A stretch of 64,000 bases of DNA from Paracoccus beibuensis (lineage in GTDB: Bacteria; Pseudomonadota; Alphaproteobacteria; Rhodobacterales; Rhodobacteraceae), in NCBI RefSeq assembly GCF_026162625.1, contig NZ_JAOTBD010000004.1, positions 62,001 through 126,000 of the forward strand. Reading direction: 5' to 3'. Numbering within the stretch: position 1 is the stretch's first letter; every line of letters begins with the position of its first letter. A program made the position numbers and the translations under genes. Positions 47,454 through 50,869 of the stretch are shown here, piece after piece. Under the pieces are notes generated by a model. It saw only the letters and a list, made by a program, of their open reading frames with translations, was not told the DNA's origin and did not search any database.

Positions 47454-48446
47454 TCACCTGATCGTCGCTCGGCTGCGACCGCTGCGCTTCGAGGCGTAAA
47501 GCGCCTCGTCAGCCAGGGCCAGCACCTCGTCGGGATGTTCGGCCCCGTCGGTGGGCCAGATGATGATCCCCAGGCTGGTTGACACGGGCGGGCCGCTTAG
47601 CTGCGAGGGCGTCAGCGCGTTGATCGCCGTGATGATCCGGCCCGACAGCTGTTCGAGCGCGGGCCGCGAGATCATCCCCGGCAGCAGAAGGACGAATTCG
47701 TCGCCACCGATTCGTGTCGCCGTGTCGGCCCGCCGGATCTGGTCACGCAGCACCTTGCCGACGGCACGCAGAAGGTCGTCCCCCGCCTGATGCCCAAGCC
47801 TGTCGTTGACCTGCTTGAAGTTGTCGAGGTCCAGGTGCACCAACGCAAACGGCCTGATGTCACCCGTCTCGGACGGCTTCAGCGCCGACGACAGCGTCAG
47901 GTCCAGCTTGCGCCTGTTGCCGAGACCGGTCAGCGGGTCGGTCTGCGCCTGCTTCAGGGCGCTTGCGCGCGACTCCGCCAGTTGCTCGTTGAAGCGCGAC
48001 AGCTCCATCAGGACGCCGCGATTGGCCTCGTGCAGGAACAGCAGCTCCATCGCCAGGTCGGAGGGCGCGAAATCGGCATCCGTCAGCCCGGCCTGCCGGA
48101 TCGCGTGGTGCAGCCCGATCCCGAATCCGAGGTTCAGCAGAAGCGATCCGTCGAACACCCTGACGCCATGGCCGCGCAAGACCAGCCGGCTTTCAGGCTC
48201 GACACGCAGGAACAGGCGCCGGCGCCCGTCGACGGCCCCTCTGATCGCGGTCATGGGATCCGCCGGCTCTCCGGGCCGTGCGCCTGACAGTCGGCCGACC
48301 AGGCCCGCATCCAGATCCGGGAGCAGCTTCGCAAGCGTCGGCCCCGCCGAGATGACCGTGCCGTCATCCCGCAACCAAAGGTGCATCGGCAGCAGCTGCG
48401 CCAAGGCGGCCCCCCGCACCAGGCAAGATTTACCGGCCATGCTCAT
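47454..48446 (-). CDS. HNOBA-type sensor with GGDEF diguanylate cyclase
   Basis: 330 residues. The N-terminal 150 residues match the heme-NO-binding-associated PAS-like domain: MHLWLRDDGTVISAGPTLAK and LLPDLDAGLVGRL, then SLLLNLGFGIGLHHAIRQAG and APSDLAMELLFLHEANRGVL. A helix (about 140-170) links to a GGDEF domain with TDPLTGLGNRRKLD and TRIGGDEFVLLLPG (active-site motif intact). The RxxD inhibitory site five residues before GGDEF is not present. It is translationally coupled to the upstream H-NOX-like gene (ATGA). It should make c-di-GMP under control of the partner. Confidence 0.88.
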   Translation of the reverse strand: MSMAGKSCLVRGAALAQLLPMHLWLRDDGTVISAGPTLAKLLPDLDAGLVGRLSGARPGEPADPMTAIRGAVDGRRRLFLRVEPESRLVLRGHGVRVFDGSLLLNLGFGIGLHHAIRQAGLTDADFAPSDLAMELLFLHEANRGVLMELSRFNEQLAESRASALKQAQTDPLTGLGNRRKLDLTLSSALKPSETGDIRPFALVHLDLDNFKQVNDRLGHQAGDDLLRAVGKVLRDQIRRADTATRIGGDEFVLLLPGMISRPALEQLSGRIITAINALTPSQLSGPPVSTSLGIIIWPTDGAEHPDEVLALADEALYASKRSGRSRATIR

Positions 48447-49009
48447 GTTGTCCCCTGTAGCGCCGGCGCGCCCTGAAGGCAGAACAATCGACCCTCCGAA
48501 AACTGTTCGTCCCAGATGTCGATGCGGATGGACCCCTCGTCGTTCGTGATGAGGCAGAGCGCGCCGAAGTCGTCGGCCATGCCCCTGATCAGGCCGACGA
48601 AGAGGAACTGCCAGACCAGCTGGGGATCGGGGTCGATGATCATGACCCTGACGCCACGCTCGGACGTCTCGACCTGCAGGCGTGGCACAGGCAGCATCGG
48701 CAGGACAAGATTCGCGCGGCCTGGAAGCTCGTCCATGCGAAGGAGGAAATCCTTGAAGTCGCGGCCCGAGAACCTGAGCAGCCGCCGGATCGGCTCGATC
48801 CGCGTCATCCAGGCGCCCATGTCCTCCAGCATCTCGGAAAAGGGCTTCGACAGGCGCTTGGCAGCCCGCGCCAGGGCAGAGGTGTCCATCCGCCCGTCAT
48901 CGGGCACCCGCACCTCTGCCGTCGCGTCGTCCTCAAGCGCCTGCACCAGCTCTTCACCATAGGTGGAGCGCAGGAATTCCTCGATCGCCCGGTTGACCAA
49001 TCTGTTCAT
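48443..49009 (-). CDS. H-NOX-like (HNOB) protein without histidine
   Basis: 188 residues. It starts MNRLVNRAIEEFLRSTYGEE, the typical HNOB opening, and the middle (RIEPIRRLLRFSGRDFKDFL, LRMDELPGRANLVLPMLPVP) lines up with the domain's helix F. The position of the heme-ligand His (LDxLHxxL) reads MDELPGRANL, and the YxSxR motif reads ETSER. In fact no His occurs anywhere in the protein. It therefore cannot hold heme in the classical way. Its GTG/ATG start at 49009 and the 4-base overlap with the cyclase gene make a sensor/cyclase pair. Confidence 0.85.
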   Translation of the reverse strand: MNRLVNRAIEEFLRSTYGEELVQALEDDATAEVRVPDDGRMDTSALARAAKRLSKPFSEMLEDMGAWMTRIEPIRRLLRFSGRDFKDFLLRMDELPGRANLVLPMLPVPRLQVETSERGVRVMIIDPDPQLVWQFLFVGLIRGMADDFGALCLITNDEGSIRIDIWDEQFSEGRLFCLQGAPALQGTT

Positions 49010-49080
49010 GCTTCACCTCGATTCGAGATGAGCCTAAGGGGCCGGCAGTAAAGAAAGCGGAAACGGCCGGCGGAAATCCG

Positions 49081-49371
49081 CTAGTCCGCCGACCACCCAT
49101 AGCTGCCTGGTCCCGAAAGTGCCGTCCGCGCAGACATGATGTCCTGCGGTCTCATACCCACCACATCGGCAAAATCGCAGAGCCTGTTGTCCTCCTCGAC
49201 AAGAAAATCAAGCAGGAACAAGGCCATGTCCGGTCGGTCCGAGAACGCCCTCAGGTCGGAGGGCTGCAGCCCGGCACCCTCGAGGAAGCGGACAAGGTCG
49301 TCCGGACGCTCGGCCATGGCGATCAGGATGCGGGTTGCGATATCATGCGCCTGCTGCGGGCTTGTGGCCAT
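49081..49371 (-). CDS. DUF3572 family protein
   Basis: 96 residues, starting MATSPQQAHDIATRILIAMA, with the conserved AERPDDLVRFLEGAGLQPSD and FLLDFLVEEDNRLCDFADVV. It is helical and probably cytoplasmic. The ATG at 49371 has GGAG 6 bases before it; 49383 is the alternative. In Rhodobacteraceae it commonly lies divergent from the PleD-like gene, as here, so it may act in the same signalling. Confidence 0.85.
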   Translation of the reverse strand: MATSPQQAHDIATRILIAMAERPDDLVRFLEGAGLQPSDLRAFSDRPDMALFLLDFLVEEDNRLCDFADVVGMRPQDIMSARTALSGPGSYGWSAD

Positions 49372-49480
49372 TCCGGACTCCATCGGGGATTTCGCCCCGG
49401 GGGCAGCCCCTCGGGAAACCCTTTGTTAAGCATTTGCAGCGAAATTGAAACCATGATGTCGAGACCTCCCGGATTAACAG

Positions 49481-50869
49481 ATGACGGCACGTATCCTTGT
49501 TGCAGACGGCGCGGCGACGGCGCGGATCACCCTCAAGGTCCGACTGTCTGCGGTGTGCTATGACGTCGTGGCGGTCGGCTGGTTCGATCAGCTGGCCGCG
49601 CAGCTGGCAACGGCACGTCCGGACCTGATCATCCTGGGCGGCGGCTTTCCCGACTGCCCCGCAAGCGACATCTGCAAGCAGTTGACGTCGGACGTGCGGT
49701 ATGCGGACATTCCGGTCCTGATGCTCGTCAGGCCGTCCGACAGGCTGGGCGCGCTGAAAGCCGGTGCGACGGCCACGCTGGACCCGGATGTCGAGGACCA
49801 GATGCTGATGGCGCGGGTCCGGGGCATTCTGCGCGACGCCGAACATCCGCAGGAGGCGCAGCTTGGACTGGCCGAGGCGCCCGCCGCCTTCAGCCACGTC
49901 GCCCTGCCGCAGGTCGTGCTGATCGCCGACAGCGTGGGCCGGGCGCTGCGCTGGCGGCAGCTCTTGTCGGACCGCATGGCCGGGCGCTTCGACATACAGG
50001 ATCCCGACGAGGCGCTTGGCGCCGCGGCATCTGGCCGGACCGCCGATCTTTACCTGATCGCGGCGGATATCCGCAACCGGGGCGACGGGCTTCGCCTGCT
50101 GTCCGAGCTGCGGTCGCGGCAGGGCTCGCGGGATGCCGGCTTCGTCATCGCCATCGCACCCGAGCGGGAGGAGCTTGCCGCCATCGCGCTGGACCTCGGC
50201 GCGGGCGATGTCCTTTCGGACTCCCTTGGCGGGTCCAGCGGGGCGCAGGCGGCGGCGATGTCGCTGCAGAAGCTTCTGTCCCGCAAGACCAAAAGCGATC
50301 AGCGCCGCGCCGAGGTCCAGCGCCACATGGTCTGGGCCATGACCGATCCGCTGACCGGCCTGTCGAACCGCCGCCACGCCCTTCCGAAACTGGCCGAGAT
50401 GGCGCGTGACGCGCTGATGTCCAAGCAGGGGTTCTGCGTCTTGGCCATTGACCTGGACCACTTCAAAGCGGTCAACGACCGTCACGGACACATGGCCGGC
50501 GACGCCGTTCTGGCCGAGGTTGCGCACCGTCTGCGCGACACCGTCGGCGGCGCGGGTTTGGTCGCGAGGATGGGCGGCGAGGAGTTTCTCTGCGCCTTGG
50601 GCAACTGCACCGTGGAATGTGCGCTGCGCATGGCCGAGGCGCTTCGGCGGGCGGTCCAGGACGAGCCAGTGGCCCTCCCTGGCCTCTCGGGCGGCGGACA
50701 GGTTCGGGTGACCGCATCGGTGGGCGTGGCTGCTGTCCCGCCCGGCAGCGACGGCTGGCCTGACCAAATTGCCCGACTGGCGACCGAGCGTGCGGATCGT
50801 GCCCTCCTTTCAGCCAAGGCGAGGGGTCGCAACCGGGTCGTGTCGGCTCCTTTCGAGCATGCGGCTTGA
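49481..50869 (+). CDS. pleD: PleD-like diguanylate cyclase (REC-REC-GGDEF) with degenerate receivers
   Basis: 462 residues. REC1 (1-125) begins ARILVADGAATARI, REC2 is at about 145-270, and the GGDEF domain (about 295-462) has MTDPLTGLSNRRHALPKLAE and ARMGGEEFLCALG, a functional GGEEF. In REC1 the acidic pair reads ADG, the phosphoacceptor position reads LGGGFP and the conserved Lys motif reads LDP. REC2 also lacks the standard Asp position (LIAADI). So normal phosphorylation is not expected, though dimerisation through REC may be kept. Two TTAA half sites lie in the 109-base gap upstream. Confidence 0.85.
   Translation: MTARILVADGAATARITLKVRLSAVCYDVVAVGWFDQLAAQLATARPDLIILGGGFPDCPASDICKQLTSDVRYADIPVLMLVRPSDRLGALKAGATATLDPDVEDQMLMARVRGILRDAEHPQEAQLGLAEAPAAFSHVALPQVVLIADSVGRALRWRQLLSDRMAGRFDIQDPDEALGAAASGRTADLYLIAADIRNRGDGLRLLSELRSRQGSRDAGFVIAIAPEREELAAIALDLGAGDVLSDSLGGSSGAQAAAMSLQKLLSRKTKSDQRRAEVQRHMVWAMTDPLTGLSNRRHALPKLAEMARDALMSKQGFCVLAIDLDHFKAVNDRHGHMAGDAVLAEVAHRLRDTVGGAGLVARMGGEEFLCALGNCTVECALRMAEALRRAVQDEPVALPGLSGGGQVRVTASVGVAAVPPGSDGWPDQIARLATERADRALLSAKARGRNRVVSAPFEHAA

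Follow-up and report, generated by a model that had tools for sequence, protein, structure and literature searches.

A Group-5-type H-NOX protein of Paracoccus beibuensis, encoded beside a diguanylate cyclase, lacks histidine and belongs to a clade with mostly proline at the proximal heme site

The window analyzed here is the whole 64,000-nucleotide stretch of Paracoccus beibuensis DNA (contig NZ_JAOTBD010000004.1, positions 62,001 to 126,000). It contains hnoX (48443..49009, minus strand), recognized by its open reading frame, a Pfam match and the predicted fold of its product, a Group-5-type H-NOX protein of 188 residues. The protein scored 34.8 bits against PF07700 (HNOB), for which the curated cut-off is 25.5, and 89 of 91 aligned relatives matched the profile at E ≤ 0.001. 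The predicted structure has an H-NOX fold, with a first helix predicted at residues 2-17. No second HNOB protein is encoded in the 3.9-Mb genome.

On the same strand lies a gene for a 330-residue diguanylate cyclase (47454..48446, minus strand), identified by Pfam, motif and structural model: an N-terminal alpha/beta domain (HNOBA-like) is followed by a long helix and a GGDEF domain with an I-site. The GGDEF match scored 137.4 bits with its motif intact, and the model places the helix at residues 131-167, between the predicted alpha/beta domain and the GGDEF part. The hnoX stop and the cyclase start overlap by the four nucleotides ATGA (48443..48446, minus strand), an overlap shared by 68 of the 100 relatives whose H-NOX gene is followed by a GGDEF gene. 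The first-pass annotation had coupled the H-NOX protein to a diguanylate cyclase with an HNOBA domain. The coupled cyclase was borne out, but Pfam gave no PF07701 (HNOBA) match in this window's cyclase at E ≤ 1; among 60 aligned orthologues, HNOBA was matched in 46 at E ≤ 0.01 and GGDEF in all 60. Across the relatives surveyed below, a GGDEF gene came next after the H-NOX gene at 100 of 104 loci, the exceptions being L229, which is canonical, and three loci situated at the end of a contig. The GGDEF motif was present in 179 of the 179 cyclases found, a count that is partly circular since cyclases were picked by a GGDEF-like motif, and the I-site in 177.

A DUF3572 gene (49383-49081, minus strand) lies with hnoX between two GGDEF genes. 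The second of these is a divergent REC/GGDEF gene (49481-50869, plus strand) whose nearest NCBIfam model is PleD (236 bits, below the cut-off of 474). By Pfam, these two are the GGDEF proteins of the 3.9-Mb genome, both encoded within 3.4 kb (47454-50869). Two EAL proteins and two FIST proteins are encoded on other contigs.

The proximal His of heme-based gas-sensing H-NOX proteins is absent from this protein. Its position is taken by Pro96 (codon 48722..48724, minus strand), within MDELPGRANL; in alignments with Nostoc H-NOX and with canonical alphaproteobacterial members of the family, Pro96 falls on the proximal His. The first-pass annotation had read the same letters at this position and had found no His in 188 residues; both readings were confirmed, the minus-strand ORF encoding 0 His and 2 Cys. 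The YxSxR propionate motif is likewise absent. ETSER, which had been taken for its altered form, is present in the protein, but the counterpart in the alignment columns is IDPDPQ (residues 125-130; 48620..48637, minus strand). We infer that bound heme has been lost in this H-NOX.

The absence of His from the entire chain is incidental and means little alone, because 3 of 120 aligned clade rows, including this H-NOX, have none and 94 have 3 to 8. Judged by the alignments, it is the clade-wide loss of both the site ligand and YxSxR that goes beyond chance. At position 2 of the clade alignment, His (MHGL) is present in 100 of the 120 rows and Asn in this H-NOX; the 42 canonical rows have Lys in 29 and Tyr in 6.

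When 150 Rhodobacteraceae genomes, each at least 90% complete, were searched with the profile, 103 (about two thirds) gave a match, one of them canonical and three only in pieces. One ORF was taken from each of 104 loci, one gene being split in two pieces on two contigs. With two fragments that do not reach the site and the canonical L229 left out, 101 proteins were scored, two partial genes (L223 and L228) among them. Pro occupied the proximal site in 74 and His in 8; the others had Gln (4), Asn (3), Ala (3), Arg (2), Thr (2), Gly (2), Asp (1), Lys (1) or Glu (1). The homologue alignment that the first-pass annotation had proposed thus places the loss of His as a feature of the clade, and its suggestion of an H-NOX branch without the heme ligand was upheld. 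It had also raised a sequencing error here, with His conserved in close relatives; such an error is very unlikely because close relatives share the Pro. By alignment, the loss of the heme ligand is a clade trait and not an error. Among the database matches listed (99 plus the best 120 of 6144), 207 of 211 proteins reached at least 170 residues; these 207 had Pro in 182, His in 7 and other residues in 18.

A class-wide draw of 387 genomes yielded HNOB matches in 17. Six were of the clade type; of the 11 from other families, 10 scored above 100 bits, compared to 33.5 to 88 for the clade type. Two members of the clade carry H-NOX genes that look broken: the match in G036:C34 (L223) falls in two overlapping pieces and that in G039:C63 (L218) has one internal stop, either by decay or by assembly error. 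The GGDEF gene is still next in both.

YxSxR was scored in 120 clade rows, comprising 99 rows of the draw and 21 named loci (16 added as non-Pro), with one identical pair; because this set holds rows added as non-Pro, site frequencies are quoted from the 101-row draw. The clade rows had the Tyr in 0, the Ser in 25, the Arg in 6 and the full motif in 0, and all 11 His-bearing rows were without it. The 42 canonical rows had the proximal His in 41, Tyr and Ser of the motif in 42, Arg in 40 and the full motif in 40; 30 of these controls were the best-scoring Pfam matches, so they are biased toward canonical motifs, and the other 12 came from the class-wide draw. Canonical row L157 (56.7 bits), misaligned at the site with D in the column and EIHNGF in the sequence, was counted as non-His.

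The history of the site was traced by joining each H-NOX to its cyclase and building a tree of the 120 resulting sequences (119 different), from which the proximal-site column was omitted. The site changed at least 29 times; 88 of 195 columns change less, and the median is 34. The His label needed at least 6 changes, of which starred branches force 4. One-column likelihood gave Pro at the root (1.0) under equal frequencies, and Pro (0.63) or Gln (0.31) under observed frequencies, with 5 and 4 origins of His, respectively; the observed-frequency model also favored His at an inner node of 22 rows. For D. shibae, whose H-NOX locus we take to be L112 2801-3385 (G035), both models gave His a separate origin, with a parent that is Pro at 0.80 or 0.65. 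In an outgroup tree of H-NOX only, with 14 canonical rows, the clade was set apart at 99* with little resolved inside, and starred branches forced just 2 His changes. The position of D. shibae was fixed by no starred branch, and many tree branches were weak. The scattered His of the clade looks secondary on these trees, short of proof because the branches are weak.

What the clade keeps is a set of Arg and Asp residues. RRLLR (residues 75-79; 48773..48787, minus strand) has R75 in 118, R76 in 119 and R79 in 120 of the 120 rows, and MADDFG (residues 144-149; 48563..48580, minus strand) has D146 in 119 and D147 in 115. R75, R76, R79, R98, D146 and Asp or Glu at 147 occurred together in 117 of 120 clade rows and in 0 of 42 canonical rows; all 11 His-bearing clade rows carry this signature. 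E62 (116), D63 (118), R142 (113) and R174 (117) are further conserved in the 120 rows. Pro109, G65 and G139 are invariant in the 120 relatives and were found in 41 of the 42 canonical rows; by alignment they probably correspond to the pocket Pro (Pro109) and the hinge glycines (G65 and G139) of other H-NOX proteins (PMC7108781).

Compared with P. rhizosphaerae, dN/dS was 0.147 for hnoX and 0.091 for the cyclase gene (own Nei-Gojobori script), and by this ratio hnoX is under purifying selection. Missing ligand residues and the few relatives that look broken, G036 and G039, are what a decaying relic without function would leave behind. This reading, already disfavored, is scarcely credible given the dN/dS, the five columns invariant across 120 rows, a cyclase that adjoins wherever the contig allows (one canonical protein excepted), and the phenotypes of P. 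denitrificans mutants (PMC5588039, PMC12582929).

None of the Cys positions of the clade is conserved: the commonest is 125 (61 of 120), the place of the YxSxR Tyr, followed by 11 (43 of 120). Tyr is common in the clade at four positions (17, 37, 67 and 148), of which this H-NOX retains only Y17. Heme ligation by a Cys or Tyr, as the first-pass annotation had suggested, was therefore not supported. The same Cys counts bear on a heme-free redox switch through Cys in the style of V. cholerae H-NOX. Such a mode exists in the family, since V. cholerae H-NOX is reported to be capable of heme-free signaling via its glycine hinge, switching by oxidation at a zinc-Cys site (PMC7108781), and Cys125 is widespread among the relatives. 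However, the clade has no conserved Cys, as the published account of Group 5 also states (PMC8738867), and this H-NOX has two Cys but Ile at 125, which makes a redox switch of this kind very improbable here. The group of V. cholerae H-NOX is also described as retaining the proximal His (PMC8738867), in contrast to the Pro of this protein.

The clade and its Pro were already published in 2022 as Group 5, and a 2017 paper had noted that P. denitrificans H-NOX lacks the His. Group 5 was built from the P. denitrificans protein and is described as having His in fewer than 10% of its members and Pro in most, with Gly hinges kept and without a conserved Cys (Lee-Lopez & Yukl 2022, PMC8738867). The clade here shares the mostly-Pro site, the lack of a conserved Cys, the retained Gly hinges and the adjoining GGDEF gene, and its His share of 8 in 101 agrees with the published value; published Group 5 is a network cluster at an E-value threshold (PMC8738867), and the assignment here is by traits and pairwise identity. 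P. denitrificans H-NOX (strain HAMBI_2443) also has Pro at the site, reading ELPGR, and is 42% identical to this H-NOX. Unlike this founder of the group, the present protein is without every other His as well, as are 2 of the other 119 rows. Added here are the scattered His, which looks secondary on the tree, the Arg/Asp signature, the retained hinge glycines and pocket Pro, and a dN/dS of 0.15. The literature searched, which omits most subscription journals, mentioned neither the absence of YxSxR from His-bearing members nor the Arg/Asp signature in the passages covered, and yielded no heme measurement of any Pro-type member there.

In P. denitrificans, the H-NOX without ligand His is encoded by a gene that overlaps the cyclase gene, and the hnoX mutant is reported to be partially deficient in attached growth (Kumar & Spiro 2017, PMC5588039). 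Its authors proposed that H-NOX inhibits the cyclase and that NO acts partly through this His-less protein. A later report describes metabolic and biofilm defects in an hnox deletion, with c-di-GMP not detectable (Islam 2025, PMC12582929). D. shibae H-NOX is presented in citing papers as a heme-NO sensor with an inhibitory effect on the cyclase Dgc1 (PMC8846402, PMC7232146). It is like the present protein in clade, gene order, 4-nt overlap and lack of YxSxR, and differs in having His at the site and in being cited as an NO sensor.

These two systems are the main points for NO sensing by a protein whose heme is still bound, whether through a different ligand or with no axial ligand from the protein: D. 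shibae H-NOX is a clade member cited as a heme-NO sensor despite having no YxSxR, and the authors of the P. denitrificans study assign hnoX to an NO pathway (PMC5588039). Because D. shibae H-NOX has His but no YxSxR, loss of that motif alone may not forbid heme. We nevertheless regard heme-based NO sensing as unlikely in this protein. D. shibae has the site His, whereas this H-NOX has no His anywhere; no Cys is conserved and three of the four common Tyr positions are replaced; the proximal site varies freely in the clade; and NO still stimulates biofilm in P. denitrificans hnoX mutants (PMC5588039).

The soluble guanylate cyclase (sGC) alpha subunit offers an older precedent for an H-NOX fold with heme-ligand features missing. 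Its pseudo-H-NOX is described as keeping the fold without heme, the human protein lacking the His and the moth protein YxSxR (PMC8196705). In sGC alpha an N-terminal extension fills the pocket (PMC8196705), whereas in the predicted structure of this H-NOX the first helix begins at residue 2 and there is no such extension. Like canonical H-NOX proteins (Nostoc, S. oneidensis, sGC beta), the protein has the family profile, the predicted fold, the pocket Pro and the two glycines; unlike them, it is without the proximal His and YxSxR, and the Arg/Asp signature of its clade is foreign to the canonical rows.

The clade-wide loss of His and YxSxR, the predicted fold, the retention of G65, G139 and Pro109, the near-universal GGDEF coupling and purifying selection together argue that this is probably a Group-5 H-NOX without His-ligated b-type heme, acting as the regulatory subunit of the co-translated HNOBA-like diguanylate cyclase, with a trigger other than heme-NO. 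The H-NOX fold, no longer holding heme, would contact the N-terminal domain of the cyclase, and two H-NOX subdomains moving about the glycine hinge would control cyclase activity. The trigger may be another ligand, a redox signal or a protein input, or there may be none, in which case H-NOX would be a constitutive regulator. Set against a regulatory subunit without heme are the D. shibae case and the proposal that part of the NO effect in P. denitrificans runs through an H-NOX without the ligand His (PMC5588039).

Databases label the relatives 'heme NO-binding', and in papers the type is handled as an NO sensor. Should the type be unable to hold heme, the assumed input to c-di-GMP in these bacteria would have to be reconsidered, and annotations and NO-biofilm models need revision. 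More tentatively, and with some doubt on our part, the whole Rhodobacteraceae branch may have given up heme gas sensing close to its base and become a sensor or switch that works without heme on the strength of the conserved Arg/Asp set, the D. shibae His being a secondary gain. In that case D. shibae H-NOX, the sole member found cited as a biochemically tested NO sensor, would not speak for the branch. The tree result sets the His-type (D. shibae) and Pro-type (Paracoccus) proteins as a direct comparison for heme and NO.

MttB motifs were seen at 58 of 175 loci and not at the hnoX locus of this window. At L112, L231, L232 and L233 an MttB-like gene (trimethylamine methyltransferase, identified by eye) lies upstream of hnoX.
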